Source: Edaphobacter bradus
GTDB taxonomy: Bacteria; Acidobacteriota; Terriglobia; Terriglobales; Acidobacteriaceae
Direction: 5' to 3'
Length of the DNA stretch: 64,000 nucleotides
Assembly (NCBI RefSeq): GCF_025685645.1
Contig: NZ_JAGSYF010000001.1
Coordinates: forward strand, 310,001-374,000
The notes beneath the pieces were generated by a model, which was not told the DNA's origin, did no database searches, and saw only the letters and a list, made by a program, of their open reading frames with translations. Positions 17,608 through 23,579 of this stretch are shown here, one piece after another. The first letter of the stretch is position 1. Each line of letters begins with the position of its first letter. The position numbers and the translations under genes were made by a program.

Positions 17608-18378
17608 ATGGGGATTGTGGAATCGAGTCTGACTGCGGCACAGAGACGACTTACGGTCGCAGCGCCGTTTTTGATTGAGCAGGATTGGAACGCCTACACG
17701 CCGGAGCAGCATGCGGTGTGGGCAGAGCTGGTGAGCCGACGGATGCCGCAGCTCAGGGAGCATGCCTGCCAGGAGTACCTGGATGGATTTGACGTGATTG
17801 GGCTCAAGGAAGATCAGTTGCCCGATCTGAAGGCGGTGAGCGCGCGGCTGGCCCCGAGGACGGGGTGGCAGTCGACGCCTGTGAGCGGTTTTCTGCCACC
17901 GGATGCGTTCTTCGAGATGCTTGCGGCGCGGATGTTTCCGACGACGACCTGGCTACGGAGCAGGGAGTCGCTGGAGTACACGCCGGAGCCGGACATCTTT
18001 CACGACGTCTTCGGCCACGTGCCGATGCATGCGCATCCGGTTTTCGGGGACTTTCTGCAGCACTACGGCAAGGTTTGCGCGGGGTTGATGGCTGATCCTG
18101 TGGCGCTGGAGCGGATGGGGCGGGTGTTCTGGTTCACGGTGGAGTTTGGGGTGATCCGGCAGAAGGGCGAGTTAAAGGTGTATGGCAGCGGGCTGATCAG
18201 CTCCCATGGCGAGTGCACTCGCGTGCTCGCGGGTGGGTGCGAGATTAGGGACTTCGATCTCGATGAAGTGATGAACCAGAAGTTCGATACCGGCGCGATG
18301 CAGCCTGTGCTCTATGCTGTCGAGTCGTTCGAGCAGGTCTACGAGGCGACGAAGATGGCGGAGAAGCGGCTGGGCTAG
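17608..18378 (+). CDS. phhA: Phenylalanine-4-hydroxylase
   Basis: A 256-residue pterin-dependent monooxygenase converting phenylalanine to tyrosine. The iron ligands are visible: H132 and H137 in FHDVFGHVP and E179 in WFTVEFG. The length matches bacterial enzymes that lack the ACT regulatory domain. No pterin carbinolamine dehydratase (phhB) is adjacent. It converges on tlpA with 9 bases between the stops. Confidence 0.96.
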   Translation: MGIVESSLTAAQRRLTVAAPFLIEQDWNAYTPEQHAVWAELVSRRMPQLREHACQEYLDGFDVIGLKEDQLPDLKAVSARLAPRTGWQSTPVSGFLPPDAFFEMLAARMFPTTTWLRSRESLEYTPEPDIFHDVFGHVPMHAHPVFGDFLQHYGKVCAGLMADPVALERMGRVFWFTVEFGVIRQKGELKVYGSGLISSHGECTRVLAGGCEIRDFDLDEVMNQKFDTGAMQPVLYAVESFEQVYEATKMAEKRLG

Positions 18379-18387
18379 GACTGCCGG

Positions 18388-18915
18388 TTACAGCTTCTTT
18401 TTTGGCAGAAGACTGGTGAGAGTCGTCTCCATCTTGTTCAGATCGGTCTCGCCCTGGTAGCGGGCGAGGATCTTGCCTTCAGGGCTGATGAGATAGCTGA
18501 TGGGAAGGCCAAGGACGCCGCCGTAGAGCTCGCCGAGGTGCTCGTCTCCCATGACGACTGGATAGGTGAGTTGTTGCTTGCCGACGAACTTTTTTACTGG
18601 GGATGCGTCGTCGTCCATCGAGACGCCGATGACCTCGAGGCCTTGCGGGCCGTACTTCGTCTGCCAGCCGGAGAAGCGTGGGATCTCCGCGATGCAGGGA
18701 CCGCACCATGTGGCCCAGAAGTTGAGCAAAACGAGCTTTCCGCGGTAGCTGCTCAGGCGGATAGTCTTGCCGTCGAGGCTGGTGCGGGTGAAGTCCGGGG
18801 CGTTGTGAAGCGCTGGCTGCGTGGCGGGCTTCTGCGCCTGCTGCGCCGACACAGAGAACGGAGCGGCGAGGAGTGCTGCCGCGAGGAGAGCTTTACTGGC
18901 GAGGTGGATCTTCAT
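18388..18915 (-). CDS. TlpA-like thioredoxin-family protein, secreted
   Basis: A 175-residue protein with a signal peptide (KALLAAALLAAPFSVSA) and a thioredoxin fold carrying the redox motif WCGPC in LLNFWATWCGPCIAEIP. Its likely role is thiol reduction or cytochrome/redox maturation outside the cytoplasm. The ATG overlaps the stop of the rhodanese gene by one base, so it is the last cistron of the five-gene sulfite-reduction operon. A thiol redox protein behind cysI suggests a role in handling sulfide or sulfane sulfur, but that is inference. Confidence 0.88.
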   Translation of the reverse strand: MKIHLASKALLAAALLAAPFSVSAQQAQKPATQPALHNAPDFTRTSLDGKTIRLSSYRGKLVLLNFWATWCGPCIAEIPRFSGWQTKYGPQGLEVIGVSMDDDASPVKKFVGKQQLTYPVVMGDEHLGELYGGVLGLPISYLISPEGKILARYQGETDLNKMETTLTSLLPKKKL

Positions 18916-19406
18916 CAGCGGCCCTTGGCGACGGGGTAGCCCTTGCTAACCCAGTTGGCGCCGAAGTTGTCGGCGATGTAGAGGACCTTGAGATGGGTGA
19001 AGCCCTGGGAGTGAAGCAGGTTATACGCGGGGGCGATGTTGGGGCAGCGCTCCCAGGGGCAGCAGCCGCAGTAGAGGACGATGGCGGTGTTTTTGGGAAG
19101 GCTGGCGACGCGGTCTTTGAGGGTCTGGAGGCCTGCGTCCAGGCCGGTGGGGCCGGCGTATTCGGAGCCGGGGATGTGGGCCTCGGCGAAGAGGACGTGC
19201 GAGCCGACCTGGAGGATGAGCGGCTTCGGCGAGGCGGATTGCAGGCTTGCCGCGAGGTCCGCGGGCTGGATGAGATCGGCCGTGGGGATGGACGACGCCG
19301 AGATGTGCTGGTTTTGCGCGAGGCCGAGGTGGGCCTGAAGGGCGATCAGGATGGCGGCGACGAAGAGGAGAGGATGCCGGTGCGGCTGCATGCGAACAAG
19401 CTTCAT
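18915..19406 (-). CDS. Secreted rhodanese-like protein with a multi-cysteine active loop
   Basis: 163 residues with a hydrophobic N-terminus (LLFVAAILIALQAHLGLA) suggesting export or anchoring, then one rhodanese domain. The catalytic loop reads YCGCCPWERCPN, with four cysteines where a normal rhodanese has one. The usual structural cues (LILQVGSHVLFAEAHIPGSEYAG; HLKVLYIADNFGANWVSKGYP) are present. It likely carries sulfane sulfur or senses thiols. It lies between cobA and tlpA in the cysI operon, 16 bases after cobA and overlapping tlpA by one base. Confidence 0.85.
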   Translation of the reverse strand: MKLVRMQPHRHPLLFVAAILIALQAHLGLAQNQHISASSIPTADLIQPADLAASLQSASPKPLILQVGSHVLFAEAHIPGSEYAGPTGLDAGLQTLKDRVASLPKNTAIVLYCGCCPWERCPNIAPAYNLLHSQGFTHLKVLYIADNFGANWVSKGYPVAKGR

Positions 19407-19422: not shown

Positions 19423-20160
19423 TTACCTGGAGGTTGTCTGAAGAGCTGGGCCGATGAGCAGGATGACGGGAGCCGGGCCGATGGGGTCGCTGGTGAGTGT
19501 GGCGAGGGTGGCGGTGTGGATGTGTTCCTCGGCGGTGGAGGCCTTGGAGACGGCGGCACAGGGTGTCTCGGGAGGAACACCTGAGGCGATGAGGTCTGCG
19601 GCGAGAGTTTCGAAATCGCGGCCGGGCATGTAAATGACAAGGGTCGCTCCCGCAGGCACCGTGCCGTGCCAGCTCGGAGTCAGCTCGACCTTGCCGGCGG
19701 CGTGGTGTGCGGTGGCGAGGATGAGCTTTGAGGAGCTGGCGCGGTCGGTGAGCGGCGTGCGCAGCGACGCGGCGACGGCGAAGGCGGTGGTGATGCCGGG
19801 GACGATCTCGAAGGGGAGGTTGTTCTCGCGGAGGAAGGCGATCTCCTCGCCGGCGCGGCCGAAGACGAGCGGATCGCCGGACTTGAGCCGCAATACGGAG
19901 CTGCCCGCGCTCGCGTGTTCGAGCATGAGGGCGTGAATCCCGGCCTGGGTGATGCGCGGCTGGCCGCAGCGCTTCCCGACGGGGATGATGTTTGCAGTGG
20001 GGCTGGCGAACTCGAGGATCTCGTCGGTGACGAGGTCGTCAGGGAGGATGACGTCGGCGGTCTGAAGGAGCTGGACGGCGCGCAGAGTGAGAAGGTCAGG
20101 GTCGCCGGGGCCTGCTCCGGCGAGGTAGACGTGTCCGGGTTGCGCCTCGCGTCCGTTCAT
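19423..20160 (-). CDS. cobA: Uroporphyrinogen-III C-methyltransferase
   Basis: A 245-residue SUMT that methylates uroporphyrinogen III twice to precorrin-2 using SAM. Motifs are GAGPGDPDLLTLRA, GKRCG, LKSGDPLVFGRAGEE and VPGITTAFAVAA. The usual YDRLV is PDDLV here, a mild variant. It overlaps the siroheme synthase gene by four bases. Together the two make siroheme for the sulfite reductase encoded first in the operon. Confidence 0.95.
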   Translation of the reverse strand: MNGREAQPGHVYLAGAGPGDPDLLTLRAVQLLQTADVILPDDLVTDEILEFASPTANIIPVGKRCGQPRITQAGIHALMLEHASAGSSVLRLKSGDPLVFGRAGEEIAFLRENNLPFEIVPGITTAFAVAASLRTPLTDRASSSKLILATAHHAAGKVELTPSWHGTVPAGATLVIYMPGRDFETLAADLIASGVPPETPCAAVSKASTAEEHIHTATLATLTSDPIGPAPVILLIGPALQTTSR

Positions 20161-20807
20161 CGGCTGGGCTCACCTTGTGCGGGCTTGGGATTGGTGAGGG
20201 CGTGGTTGCGGGCCATGATGCGCGATGGGCACTGGTCGTAGGCGCAGACCTCGCGCTGGGCGAGTTGGTGCAGGAAGAGGCGGCGTTCCTCGTTGAGCGG
20301 CTCGGCGGCGACGACCTCGCGGCGGAGGTTTCCGAGTTCGGCGAGCCAGTCGCCGAGGTCGAGGGGGAGCTGTTCGTGGAGCTGCTTGCGAAGCTGCTGC
20401 GCGAGCGCGGGGGAGTGGCCCGCGGTTGAGATGGCAATCTGCAGATCGCCGCGGCGGACGACGGAGGGGAAGTAGAAGTCGCAGAAGGGAGGATCGTCAA
20501 CGGCGTTGCAGAGGACGCCAGAGGATTCGGCTTCGGCGAAGACGGCGCGGTTGACGGCGGGGTCGTTGGTGGCGGCTACGACAAGGAAGGCTCCGGCGAG
20601 GTCGCCTTGCTGGTAGGGGCGGGCGTGGTAGGTGAGCTCGCCCTCATCTGCGAGATTGCGAATGCGCTCGCTGGCCGCAGGCGCGATGACGCTGATGTGT
20701 GCGCTGGCGGCCTGCAGCGACTCGATCTTCGATTCGGCGAGGTGCCCCGCGCCGACGACGACGCAGGGCCGACCGGTGAGTTTGAGGAAGATCGGGAACA
20801 GGGACAT
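20157..20807 (-). CDS. Precorrin-2 dehydrogenase / sirohydrochlorin ferrochelatase
   Basis: A 216-residue protein matching the N-terminal half of CysG (Met8/SirC family). It oxidises precorrin-2 with NAD and may insert iron to form siroheme. It has the nucleotide-binding VVVGAGHLAESKIESL, then VVAATNDPAVN and the CNAVDDPPFCDFYFPSVVRR stretch typical of the family. It lies 12 bases after cysI and overlaps cobA, so the three enzymes that build and use siroheme are translated together. Confidence 0.93.
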   Translation of the reverse strand: MSLFPIFLKLTGRPCVVVGAGHLAESKIESLQAASAHISVIAPAASERIRNLADEGELTYHARPYQQGDLAGAFLVVAATNDPAVNRAVFAEAESSGVLCNAVDDPPFCDFYFPSVVRRGDLQIAISTAGHSPALAQQLRKQLHEQLPLDLGDWLAELGNLRREVVAAEPLNEERRLFLHQLAQREVCAYDQCPSRIMARNHALTNPKPAQGEPSR

Positions 20808-20819
20808 GCGATTAGGCTA

Positions 20820-22559
20820 CTACTCTCCAGGTGCGAAGCGGCCCGCTCCGACTGGCGGAGCGTCGCGCTCGACTGGGTCGATGATCTCGCCGGCGAGTTG
20901 GGCGCGGAGAGTGTCGTCGTCGGTGCGGTCGAAGTAGGAGCGCAGATCTTCGCCTTCGTTGCGTTCTGCGAGGTAGACATTGAGCAAGCGCTCGATGGCA
21001 GCGGGAACGTCCTCGGAGGCGGCGCGGTAGCCGAGCGGGCGTGCGGGACGGGCGTACTTGCCGACGGAGCCTCCGACGCAGAAGAAGAAGGCGTCGACCA
21101 CCTGGCCGTCTTTCTTGATCTTCTTGCCCTCAAGGCCGATGTCGGCGATCCAGTGCTGGCCGCAGGAGTTGGTGCAGCCGGTGACGTGGAGTCGAATCTG
21201 CTGGTCGAAGCCGGGCAGGCGCTCCTCAAGCTCAGAGACGAGCCAGGTGTTGAAACCCTTGGTTTCGGCGATGGCGAGCTTGCAGAACTCGGTGCCGGTG
21301 CAGGCGACGGCCCCGCGCCAGAAGGGTGAGACGTCGACGTTGAGGCCGAGGGTGTTGAGCTCGACGACGAGGCCCGCGGTCTGCACGTGGGGCACGTTGA
21401 CGATGAGAATATTCTGGCCGATGGTGGCGCGGAGATGGCCGTTGCCGTACTTGTCTGCGAGGTCGGCAAGAGCGACGAGCTGGTCACCGGAGAGGCGGCC
21501 GTTGAGCACGGAGGCTCCGACGGCCGATAGGCCGGGTTGGCGCTGCGGTGTGATGCCGATGTGGTCGCGGTAGATGTCAGCGGGCGGCTGGTCGGCTGCG
21601 GGGCTGGGGTCGAGCTTGTAGCCGAGTTTTTCTTCGAGGGCTGCGAGGAAGGATTCGGCAGTCCAGCCATGGCGCATGAAGAGGTACTTAATGCGCGCGC
21701 GTGTGCGGTTTTCGCGGAGGTCGGTCTGCTCGCGGAAGATGCGGACGGCCGCGTCGACGACGGCGAGGGCCTGGTCCTGGCGGATGAAGGCGGGGATGCG
21801 CTCGGCGATGTGAGGTTCGGTGGAGAGGCCACCGCCGACGCGGAGGGTGTAGCCGATCTCTTCGGCTCCGTTGCCATCGGTTCCGATGACAGACCGCTTG
21901 ATGGCCGTCAGGGCGAGGTCGTTGATCTCGGGGTAGGTGCACCAGATGGGGCAGCCGGTGACGGAGATCTTGAACTTGCGCGGCAGGTTGTAGAACTCTG
22001 GGTTCGCGGTTAGGTGATGTGCGATCTGAACGGCTAAAGGGCTGGAATCGACGATCTCGTGATTATCGAGGCCTGCGAGCGGGCAGCCGGTGACGTTGCG
22101 GACGACATCGCCGCAGGCTCCTTTGGGCGAGAGGCCGACGGCGGTGAGGGCGTCAACGACCTCGACGAGGCCGGAGAGCGTGAGCCAGTGGAGCTGGATG
22201 TTCTGCCGCGTGGTGATGTCGGCGAGGTTGCGGGCGTACTTCTTCGCGATCTCGCCGATGACGCGGAGCTGCGCACTGGTGAGCAGACCATTGGGCAGGC
22301 CGATGCGCATCATGAAGAAGTCGGTGGCCTTGCCTTCGCCGTTGGCCCCGCCGGTGACGCCCTTGCCGTCACCCTGGGTGTAGACGCCCCACCACTTGAA
22401 GTAGAGTCCGGTCCACTCGGGCAGGACGGAGTCGCGGCCCTGACGGGCGAACTCACGCACCTCGTCCCAGGCATCCCAGGGGTTCTTTGCAAGTTTGAGG
22501 CGCTCGGATCGCTGGGCCTTGGTCTCTTTGATGGCTGGGGCCGCCGGGGTAGTAGACAT
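20820..22559 (-). CDS. cysI: Ferredoxin-type sulfite (or nitrite) reductase
   Basis: A 579-residue siroheme/[4Fe-4S] reductase catalysing six-electron reduction. Two half-repeats are visible. The cluster ligands are in CTGTEFC (about residue 420) and CTNSCGQH (about 460); the N-terminal half has TGCPLAGLDNHE and VTGCPIWCTYPEI. Sequence alone does not fully separate sulfite from nitrite reductase. The siroheme genes, rhodanese and polycysteine leader favour sulfite reduction for cysteine synthesis. The ATG at 22559 follows AAGGAATCC; the upstream open frame is the regulatory leader, not protein. Confidence 0.88.
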   Translation of the reverse strand: MSTTPAAPAIKETKAQRSERLKLAKNPWDAWDEVREFARQGRDSVLPEWTGLYFKWWGVYTQGDGKGVTGGANGEGKATDFFMMRIGLPNGLLTSAQLRVIGEIAKKYARNLADITTRQNIQLHWLTLSGLVEVVDALTAVGLSPKGACGDVVRNVTGCPLAGLDNHEIVDSSPLAVQIAHHLTANPEFYNLPRKFKISVTGCPIWCTYPEINDLALTAIKRSVIGTDGNGAEEIGYTLRVGGGLSTEPHIAERIPAFIRQDQALAVVDAAVRIFREQTDLRENRTRARIKYLFMRHGWTAESFLAALEEKLGYKLDPSPAADQPPADIYRDHIGITPQRQPGLSAVGASVLNGRLSGDQLVALADLADKYGNGHLRATIGQNILIVNVPHVQTAGLVVELNTLGLNVDVSPFWRGAVACTGTEFCKLAIAETKGFNTWLVSELEERLPGFDQQIRLHVTGCTNSCGQHWIADIGLEGKKIKKDGQVVDAFFFCVGGSVGKYARPARPLGYRAASEDVPAAIERLLNVYLAERNEGEDLRSYFDRTDDDTLRAQLAGEIIDPVERDAPPVGAGRFAPGE

Positions 22560-22586
22560 GATGGATTCCTTTGCTGGGAGTAGCCG

Positions 22587-22617
22587 GAAAATAGAAAGGC
22601 CCACTGGATAAGTGGGC
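22587..22617 (-). terminator. Attenuator-type terminator in the cysI leader
   Basis: Read on the minus strand, a 7-bp stem (22617-22611 with 22605-22599, loop TATCC) is followed by the U-rich tract CUUUCUAUUUU. It lies between the leader ORF stop and the cysI ribosome site, the position expected for an attenuator. Strength is moderate because of the short stem and interrupted U tract. Confidence 0.65.
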
Positions 22618-22643
22618 GCTGCGTAACTTTGCTGTGATCTAGG

Positions 22644-22668
22644 AAGACTGTGGAGGGAAGTCAGTCTT
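22644..22668 (-). promoter_or_regulatory. Hairpin overlapping the leader ORF stop codon
   Basis: AAGACTG and CAGTCTT form a perfect 7-bp stem (22668-22662 with 22650-22644) around an 11-base loop containing CCCTCC, complementary to a Shine-Dalgarno sequence. The stop codon of the polycysteine ORF lies at the stem base, so a ribosome stalled in or leaving the ORF would change this fold. The function is inferred. Confidence 0.5.
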
Positions 22669-22756
22669 AGATGCTGAAGCAAAGGCGACAACGCACGAGG
22701 TCGCAACAACAGCTACACATGCGACACATAGCGGTGTTCGTGCGAGAAATCGCCAT
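22667..22756 (-). CDS. Polycysteine leader peptide upstream of cysI
   Basis: A 29-codon open frame ending in TAA. Its C-terminal 20 residues contain seven cysteines, including the run CSCCC (codons TGT AGC TGT TGT TGC), and read CRMCSCCC, then DLVRCRLCFSI. Starts are possible at 22756, 22729 or 22720. None has a clear ribosome site, but the 22756 ATG falls seven bases behind a candidate -10 box, so the mRNA may be leaderless. Translation slows at cysteine codons when cysteine is scarce. The likely role is attenuation control of the five-gene sulfite-reduction operon; leaderless polycysteine ORFs with this job are known in mycobacteria. It is too short for routine gene calling. Confidence 0.72.
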   Translation of the reverse strand: MAISRTNTAMCRMCSCCCDLVRCRLCFSI

Positions 22757-22763
22757 GCTTAGA

Positions 22764-22792
22764 AGGTTACTTGTGTGGAGGGAAGCCGTCAA
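22764..22792 (-). promoter_or_regulatory. Candidate promoter of the leader-cysI operon
   Basis: TTGACG (22792-22787) and TAACCT (22769-22764) are spaced by exactly 17 bases on the minus strand. Seven bases separate the -10 box from the A of the leader ATG at 22756, which would make that ATG the first transcribed codon. The -10 is a modest match. Confidence 0.5.
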
Positions 22793-22904
22793 GGGAAAAG
22801 GCCGGGTGTTCTTCGGCGGAAGAACTCAACGCCGTGCGGCAGGAAATTCTAATCCTCTTCTTAAGCAAAGAGATAACTAGTCTCGGACCGCTTTTCTGCC
22901 CTGC

Positions 22905-23579
22905 TTATTCCGCCTGGGCGAGCGAGAACTTATGGCGCACGTCGGAGCCTCGCACCCAGAAGATGACGTCCTCGGCGATGTTGGTGGCGTGGTCGGCGGA
23001 GCGCTCGAGGTTGCGCGAGACGATGATGGCGTTGAGCGCCTGGCCGCTGATCTCGGGATGTTTCTGCATTACTTCGACCAACTCGGCCTGGACGATCCGG
23101 TTCATGTCGTCGATCTCGTCATCCATGGCGAGGACCGACTCGGCCAGCTTGGCGTCAGCTTCGAGGAGAGACTGAATGGCGCGGCGAATCATGATGCCGA
23201 CCTTCTCGCCCATGTCGGGGATGTCGATCGGAAGCTCGATCTGCTCCAGTCCCCGCTGTGCTCCGGCGCGATGCGCAATGCCGGAGGCCTGGTCGCCGAT
23301 ACGCTCGAGGTCGCCGTTGATCTTGATGACGGAGAGGATGAAGCGCAGGTCGATGGCCATGGGCTGTTCTTTGGCGAGCAGGTCGTAGGCCATCTCATCG
23401 ACCTCGCGCTCGGCGGCGTTGATGGCGGCCTCGATCTCCTTGACGTGCTCGCATAGGCTCAAGTCGTTGGTGAGGTAGGCTTCGAGCGCAAGCGAGAGGG
23501 CCTGCTGCGACAAGGCAGCCATGGCGAGGAGTTTGTCTTTCAATGCGACAAGTTGCTGTTGGAAGTTAATGCGCGGCAT
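22905..23579 (-). CDS. phoU: Phosphate-specific transport accessory protein PhoU
   Basis: A 224-residue all-helical protein with the two tandem three-helix repeats of PhoU. Metal-binding E/D motifs are visible in DLERIGDQASGIAHRA and the matching NLERSADHATNIAEDVIFWV. It dampens the PhoR/PhoB response and Pst transport. No pst or pho genes are present in this window. It reads leftward toward the cysI operon promoter region. Confidence 0.95.
   Translation of the reverse strand: MPRINFQQQLVALKDKLLAMAALSQQALSLALEAYLTNDLSLCEHVKEIEAAINAAEREVDEMAYDLLAKEQPMAIDLRFILSVIKINGDLERIGDQASGIAHRAGAQRGLEQIELPIDIPDMGEKVGIMIRRAIQSLLEADAKLAESVLAMDDEIDDMNRIVQAELVEVMQKHPEISGQALNAIIVSRNLERSADHATNIAEDVIFWVRGSDVRHKFSLAQAE

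Follow-up and report, generated by a model that had tools for sequence, protein, structure and literature searches.

Classical attenuators of the trp and his type combine regulatory codons, a terminator and an alternative pairing, and in polycysteine attenuators of the mycobacterial type the ribosome-binding site (RBS) of the 3′ gene is sequestered. Cysteine-responsive attenuation by mycobacterial polycysteine open reading frames (ORFs) was reportedly shown by Canestrari in 2020, and is said to have been described there as translation attenuation. Frames as short as the leader ORF discussed below are often overlooked by annotation. In mycobacteria, Cys-rich leaderless upstream ORFs (uORFs) were proposed as attenuators (Shell 2015, PMC4633059), and translation attenuation has been reported for M. 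smegmatis (PMC13236596), as far as the available portions of both papers go. Another study, in its accessible part, describes Cys leader peptides for Mycobacterium, Propionibacterium and Bifidobacterium and reports no conserved terminator hairpin ahead of the Mycobacterium cys operon (Seliverstov 2005, PMC1262725).

Related devices have been described in other bacteria. The uORFC-8-2 element before cysS in Rhodobacterales is predicted to act by ribosome-mediated attenuation, with Cys codons in the uORF and an intrinsic terminator, according to the sections available (PMC8632094). The S. lividans leaders trpL1, ilvL and leuL2 are leaderless leader peptides accompanied by hairpins and a U-rich stretch, and the metL peptide before metNIQ (ending ARCMCRRMCAF) contains three Cys that are left undiscussed in the part of the paper at hand (PMC8079986). 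Short leader genes in Acidobacteria have been counted, without mention of cysteine in the accessible text (PMC4833913). No acidobacterial cysteine attenuator is found among the literature matches listed, which comprise titles and abstract openings and leave most subscription papers outside their coverage.

The window analyzed here is a stretch of 64,000 nucleotides from Edaphobacter bradus. A preliminary description, made from its letters alone, had placed on the minus strand a 29-codon ORF with seven cysteines, a TTGACG-17-TAACCT promoter ending 7 nt ahead of an ATG at 22756, a hairpin over the stop codon, and an intrinsic-type terminator with a U-rich tract ahead of a reductase gene. All four are recovered by direct reading:

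22787..22792, minus strand: -35 element TTGACG, read directly (most listed relatives have TTGACN)
22764..22769, minus strand: -10 element TAACCT, with 7 nt between its end and the ATG and a 17-nt spacer to the -35 element
22756 (ATG) to 22667 (TAA), minus strand: predicted leaderless polycysteine leader ORF, 29 codons plus TAA, coordinates rechecked
22644..22668, minus strand: stop-codon hairpin AAGACTG...CAGTCTT (arms 22668-22662 and 22650-22644), from direct reading and the genus alignment
22599..22617, minus strand: intrinsic-type terminator GCCCACT-TATCC-AGTGGGC with the tail CTTTCTATT, from sequence and conservation

The ORF translates as MAISRTNTAMCRMCSCCCDLVRCRLCFSI, with seven Cys in its last 20 residues, CSCCC among them. 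Considered as a single sequence, the leader is unremarkable. A generic scan called no promoter, the score of TAACCT being too low; no Rfam covariance model matched positions 22300-23000 at an E value of up to 5; and one terminator-like site was scored, vs 0.5 in shuffles. With such features near chance, the case rests on conservation.

The reductase gene starts 107 nt past the leader stop codon. It had been called cysI in the preliminary description, an identity that has to be given up: the best NCBIfam model is the NirA family PRK09567 (382 bits, below the cut-off of 523), and the closest solved structure is M. tuberculosis NirA 1zj8, a sulfite reductase. The siroheme genes noted downstream are indeed there, and the region reads as follows:

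22567..22572, minus strand: AAAGGA, likely RBS of nirA, from direct reading
20820..22559, minus strand: NirA-family ferredoxin-type sulfite/nitrite reductase (nirA), from family models and the structure neighbor
20157..20807, minus strand: precorrin-2 dehydrogenase (CysG N-terminal domain)
19423..20160, minus strand: uroporphyrinogen-III C-methyltransferase (siroheme)
18915..19406, minus strand: rhodanese-like protein, probable operon member
18388..18915, minus strand: thioredoxin/AhpC-TSA-like protein, probable operon member

Sulfite reduction by this operon is inferred. The gene upstream of the leader, on the same strand, is phoU, and a biopterin-dependent aromatic amino acid hydroxylase gene (17608-18378, plus strand) is convergent with the probable nirA operon, at its end. 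The nearest named genome among the NirA matches listed is Edaphobacter modestus, at 87%, in a list from which the window's own genome may be missing. Acidobacteriaceae-like nirA genes (54-69% identity) also occur at four loci labelled Verrucomicrobia, Opitutia or Methylomirabilota (L191, L203, L249, L257).

NirA was found in 95 of 150 genomes from the family (Acidobacteriaceae), giving 100 matches. The upstream set (n=100) consists of 90 of these and 10 extra matches from the genus; the ten left out were partial, near a contig end, or lowest-scoring. A short ORF with at least three Cys within 10 residues occurs in 90/100 of the nirA upstreams, vs 13.5% of dinucleotide shuffles and 6/100 opposite strands, a count that includes a few chance ORFs (L054, L091). 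Stricter thresholds leave 71/100 with at least four Cys (shuffles 1.4%, opposite strand 1/100), 52/100 with at least five (0.1%, 0/100) and 25/100 with at least six (0.0%, 0/100). Counted by genus (n=47), at least three Cys are found in 45, at least four in 39, and the strict promoter described below in 31. In a collection of named genomes, which overlaps the main set and again includes a few chance ORFs (e.g. L249), 77 of 80 loci were readable, three being short of upstream sequence, and the ORF is present in 69/77 with at least three Cys and in 49/77 with at least four.

The Cys block aside, these leader peptides are alike within a clade and diverge between clades (e.g. MSHSTIPVLCCGCCICVRRTLSE, MALCPMPVMCCACCCALRRTCG and MSASCATRCQCCTCCCTRVSTGARGPLT), and the number and spacing of the cysteines vary widely among loci. 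The Cys codons of the leaders show a UGU:UGC ratio of 326:170, vs 2:42 in nine window ORFs; in the nirA genes it is about 98:799. A protein search of the 150 family genomes with the 29-residue peptide retrieved, besides the window, a leader before nirA only in G098 (L028) among the loci inspected. The other matches of that search looked like noise, and eleven on the minus strand were reread without yielding a further leader. Among the ten nirA loci without an ORF of at least three Cys, there are two (G108 and G054) whose coordinates place yeiH immediately ahead of nirA, and there the polycysteine ORF stands before yeiH. Outside the family, 7 of 9 genomes of the phylum with a distant NirA were read; none of the seven has a short ORF with at least four Cys in 10, and one locus (L173) has an ORF with at least three Cys, 490 nt away.

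The promoter spacing is conserved as well. A strict TTGACN-(16-18)-TANNNT motif ends 4-12 nt ahead of the chosen ORF start in 58/80 loci, with a mode of 6-7 nt, and occurs elsewhere in those 80 loci only 4 times in about 51.7 kb. This count is somewhat favored, because the start codon was chosen with the promoter in mind. An independent count, in which any Cys-rich ORF behind the strict promoter was accepted, gives 65/100 upstreams, vs 0/100 opposite strands and 1/2000 shuffles. The spacing fits an mRNA that begins at or next to the AUG; with 5′ ends unmapped, this start is an inference.

A U-tailed hairpin follows the ORF in 88/90 ORF-bearing nirA leaders. All 88 hairpins reach a terminator score of at least 22, vs 3/88 single mononucleotide shuffles. 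The sole two leaders without a terminator, L054 and L091, were judged to be chance ORFs and excluded from the structure tests. Within the genus, 97.4% of cells are paired at the terminator in the alignment. In a clade marked by CUGGCG near the ORF end, the terminator arm extends into the 22 nt ahead of the nirA start in 18/24 loci, which would allow the hairpin to hide the start as well. At many of the loci L106-L141 the nirA start codon directly follows the terminator U-run, and no separate Shine-Dalgarno sequence is visible. At the stop-codon hairpin (helix 3), 80.4% of cells are paired in the genus alignment and 4/6 pairs have changed on both sides. Conservation of both hairpins had been proposed as a check on the leader: it holds across the family for the terminator, and the compensatory changes in four pairs of the stop-codon hairpin are confined to the genus, within which alone that hairpin was scored. 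The comparison of upstream regions of reductase orthologues, suggested in the preliminary description, thus finds the ORF, its Cys codons, the promoter spacing and the terminator strongly conserved, and on that ground supports the reading as a cysteine attenuator.

The window leader is therefore considered a probable ribosome-mediated, cysteine-specific attenuator, in which a shortage of Cys-tRNA would cause stalling and prevent termination. Transcription start, translation, stalling, termination, the switch and the cysteine response are all inferred in this model. Transcription would start at or next to the AUG and allow immediate ribosome loading on the polycysteine frame without a Shine-Dalgarno sequence. 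When Cys-tRNA is plentiful, the ribosome would reach the stop codon and cover the 3′ part of the ORF, so that the hairpin ahead of nirA could form and transcription would terminate. When Cys-tRNA is scarce, the ribosome would stall in the Cys block and leave the 3′ end of the ORF free to pair just 5′ of the terminator 5′ arm, or in many relatives within it, and RNA polymerase would read through into nirA and the siroheme genes. The elements proposed for this pairing in the window are:

22678..22684, minus strand: proposed 5′ strand of the antiterminator core, CUUUGCU, within the ORF
22627..22633, minus strand: proposed 3′ strand of the antiterminator core, AGCAAAG
22691..22696, minus strand: proposed 5′ strand of the outer antiterminator helix, GUGCGU, with proposed partners GCG and CAC within 22612-22619

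Complementarity between the 3′ end of the ORF and the region just 5′ of the terminator 5′ arm, often inside it, is seen across loci. Examples are CUGGCG/CGCCAG in one large clade, CUUGUGGG/CCCAUAAG in L057 and CUUUGCU/AGCAAAG in the window. The duplex mean z for the ORF end against the pre-terminator region and 5′ arm is -1.15 over 88 loci; with a narrower target it is -1.20 over 86 loci (L054, L091, L059 and L122 left out), vs -0.34 for the nirA start region. Because the loci are related, these means are not independent evidence. The per-locus tests are only moderately significant (24/88 at p<=0.05, 9/88 at <=0.01), and the wider test for the window alone gives p 0.020. In the genus alignment of 13 sequences, the antiterminator and stop-codon hairpin together have 90.1% of cells paired; pairing fraction and covariation score are each reached by 1/500 shuffles and lie above all slid versions. 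Six pairs have changed on both sides (13/500 shuffles reach 6): the four in the stop-codon hairpin and 2/6 in the outer antiterminator helix (helix 1). The core helix (helix 2) is paired in 96.2% of cells, with zero pairs changed on both sides. Shuffles of this kind can be beaten by related sequences even in the absence of structure, and the same 13 sequences served to draw the one tested. The alignment of the CUGGCG clade hardly varies and contains no compensatory change for its antiterminator.

Folding gives a less favorable picture. Over 86 loci, equilibrium sequestration of the terminator arm is 0.47 vs 0.38 in shuffles, with 20/86 individually at or below 5%; several loci fall below their shuffles, among them the window, at 0.13 vs 0.18. 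Equilibrium folding of the window keeps the terminator at 0.96-0.99 with the ribosome stalled at any Cys codon. The partner region of the outer helix (22612-22619) overlaps the terminator arm; the core has no such overlap, and core helix and terminator coexist in the fold. For the putative antiterminator, then, complementarity over many loci counts in favor, covariation adds only weak support, and folding of the window, which does not favor the outer helix either, adds none. Given these mixed tests of folding, sequestration and complementarity, cysteine-sensing attenuation can be called well supported and termination its likely outcome across the family; the exact form of the switch is unproven for the window leader.

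Other explanations of the same data have to be weighed. In a mechanism like that of the mycobacteria, the stalled ribosome would block a structure that otherwise hides the nirA RBS, and the hairpin would be incidental or serve only to mask the start. This is unlikely as the general explanation, though it cannot be set aside. Within the window, the ORF segment CCUUUGCU shows complementarity to AGCAAAGG, which lies at the start of nirA. The ORF end there scores z -1.9 against the nirA start and only z -0.8 against the pre-terminator region, and values of -2.9 and -2.6 for the nirA start are seen at two further loci of the genus. The overlap of start region and terminator arm in the CUGGCG clade would also suit this mechanism, as would the cysD leaders of three genus members, which lack a terminator. 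Overall, however, complementarity to the nirA start is weak, as the mean over 86 loci indicates, and it averages only -0.42 over 15 loci of the genus; the U-tailed hairpins of nearly all ORF-bearing leaders also count against a purely translational output. For the window itself, masking of the nirA start stands as an equal alternative to the antiterminator.

It is very improbable that the ORF encodes a functional Cys-rich micro-protein, for instance one that binds metals or thiols, and is placed before nirA for co-expression only. In favor of such a protein, the frame is conserved and its cysteines are clustered. Against it, their number and spacing vary widely, and from clade to clade so does the remainder of the peptide; where the C-terminus is conserved, as GAGRLLT, its codons include the CUGGCG stretch, to which the terminator arm is complementary. 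Furthermore, the UGU bias and the hairpin downstream of the ORF point to a role in cis. Chance, or low complexity, was a reasonable concern for the single sequence, since GC-rich intergenic DNA often contains hairpins and short frames rich in Cys. Besides the terminator-like site barely in excess of shuffles, 622 overlapping tiles over both strands of the window contain an ORF with at least three Cys in 41 cases and with at least four in 6, the leader ORF included. This explanation is refuted by the shuffle and opposite-strand controls on 100 nirA upstreams and on those of cysD and yeiH, and can be regarded as practically ruled out. What favors a cysteine-specific attenuator is read from the DNA alone, in the ORF, its Cys codons, the promoter spacing, the terminator-like hairpin, their conservation, and the similar leaders before cysD and yeiH.

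A scan of the window's own genome for the strict leaderless promoter followed by ATG gave 16 matches vs 4 in the control. Two of the 16 are polycysteine ORFs, namely the window's own and MGLMRNALCTCCPCCMGDGCCCVGSLLT, which is followed by a 41-residue ORF and a putative sulfate exporter of the YeiH family (PF03601; the TIGR00698 score falls short of its cut-off). With GTG as start codon there were 13 matches vs 19 in the control and no new polycysteine leader. A bare CxCCC codon pattern gave 61 matches vs 34 in the control; in 20 loci fetched only the window ORF stood out, and a match outside those 20, at C4:401214, is the cysD leader. This third polycysteine ORF of the genome, MVSSIKRACCCCCMSLAPCCRR, lies ahead of a cysD-cysN-cysH operon. 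Three leaderless-type micro-ORFs of the same genome, at L144 (G000:C1:571786), L151 and L152, read MTHAAAAAA, MFSRHCRK and MFVHTQIS.

Both gene contexts recur in relatives. For yeiH, 30 of 34 matches were read and 29 had enough upstream sequence; an ORF with at least four Cys is present in 12/29, vs 12/580 shuffles and 1/29 opposite strands, not counting a Cys-rich frame in L287 that overlaps the gene start. All 12 of these leaders have a terminator. By coordinates, yeiH is found on the nirA strand, a few kb past nirA, in at least six of the remaining genomes, a position in which it need not be expected to have its own leader. For cysD, 30 of 39 matches were read, and ORFs with at least three Cys occur in 26/30 loci (vs 97/600 shuffles and 6/30 opposite strands) and with at least four in 22/30 (vs 9/600 and 2/30). 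A terminator score of at least 22 is reached by 10/23 valid cysD leaders, and the cysD leaders of the three genus members have no recognizable terminator (0/3). Such leaders must thus have some output besides termination, and a translational one is suggested for those of the genus. Several sulfur operons therefore seem to share the leader device.

Further Cys-rich ORFs, three in number, were found in the congener G098 among 15 of 28 leaderless-pattern matches read. At L339 (G098:C2:695300-708000) the leaderless ORF MMVSVQPEHIAMQISEWTPCRSCCRCY is followed by an outer-membrane beta-barrel gene and two sulfatases, an arrangement that suggests cysteine control of organosulfate scavenging. At L338 (G098:C1:133000-150000) there are two ORFs of this leaderless, Cys-rich kind, MTMDTMPLICCCSCCEQAQLRG, which has a terminator-like hairpin, and MFTVETDHLPCSQAALRGMYCCCA; the cluster has a beta-barrel gene and sugar enzymes and adjoins an opposite-strand alkanesulfonate-monooxygenase-like gene (below the model cut-off). 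In G028, no polycysteine ORF was present among 15 of 24 leaderless-pattern matches read, and its own nirA leader lies outside those 15.

A slightly better than even case can be made for a cysteine 'ribulon' in Acidobacteriaceae, in which nirA, cysDNH and yeiH each have their own leaderless polycysteine sensor. At least one species would have further sensors at clusters that combine outer-membrane beta-barrel genes with sulfatases or adjoin an alkanesulfonate-type monooxygenase. Such sensors would share little beyond their Cys codons, and their output would be termination or, where the terminator is missing, translation control. The ribosome, rather than a repressor protein, would coordinate sulfur acquisition, and the arrangement has perhaps arisen independently of the mycobacterial one.

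Measured against the known systems, the window leader resembles trp/his-type attenuators in its regulatory codons, its terminator and its proposed alternative pairing. It differs from them in that the leader ORF has no Shine-Dalgarno sequence, the proposed antiterminator uses the ORF's own 3′ end, and mutual exclusion in the window is undemonstrated. The likeness to ribosome-mediated transcription attenuators, that is, a leader ORF rich in codons for the pathway product together with an intrinsic terminator, is one of sequence only; the mutual exclusivity of antiterminator and terminator has in its favor the complementarity over loci and the two doubly changed outer-helix pairs, and is not shown by folding of the window. 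The uORFC-8-2 element differs in its two tandem Cys codons, usually at positions 14-15, its association with cysS and its place in Alphaproteobacteria, and a leaderless start is not mentioned in the part of that paper available. The acidobacterial leaders usually have three or more clustered Cys codons and precede nirA, cysD and yeiH, cysS upstreams lying outside the comparison. With the S. lividans leaders, as far as the accessible text describes them, they share a leaderless peptide, a hairpin and a U-rich stretch, although the amino acids and the phylum are different.

The closest likeness is to the mycobacterial polycysteine ORFs, which, going by the sources as available, are short, leaderless, with clustered Cys codons, first in sulfur or cysteine operons, and several per genome. 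A short ORF with clustered Cys before sulfur or cysteine genes, the feature of that type, is present in the acidobacterial leaders too. The acidobacterial leaders belong to another phylum, and those of nirA have a terminator-like hairpin between ORF and gene. A mycobacterial type without terminator and with a sequestered RBS is not matched by the nirA leaders, with their 88/90 hairpins and a pairing at the start that is weak overall, whereas the cysD leaders of the genus (3/3) do agree with the absence of a terminator. The acidobacterial leaders may thus work like the mycobacterial sensors, with the addition of a terminator reportedly missing there, in another phylum and gene context. If this is true, a second phylum joins the Actinobacteria in having cysteine-sensing leaderless leader peptides, and their likely output differs there, which suggests that the polycysteine leader is a simple sensor able to evolve more than once.
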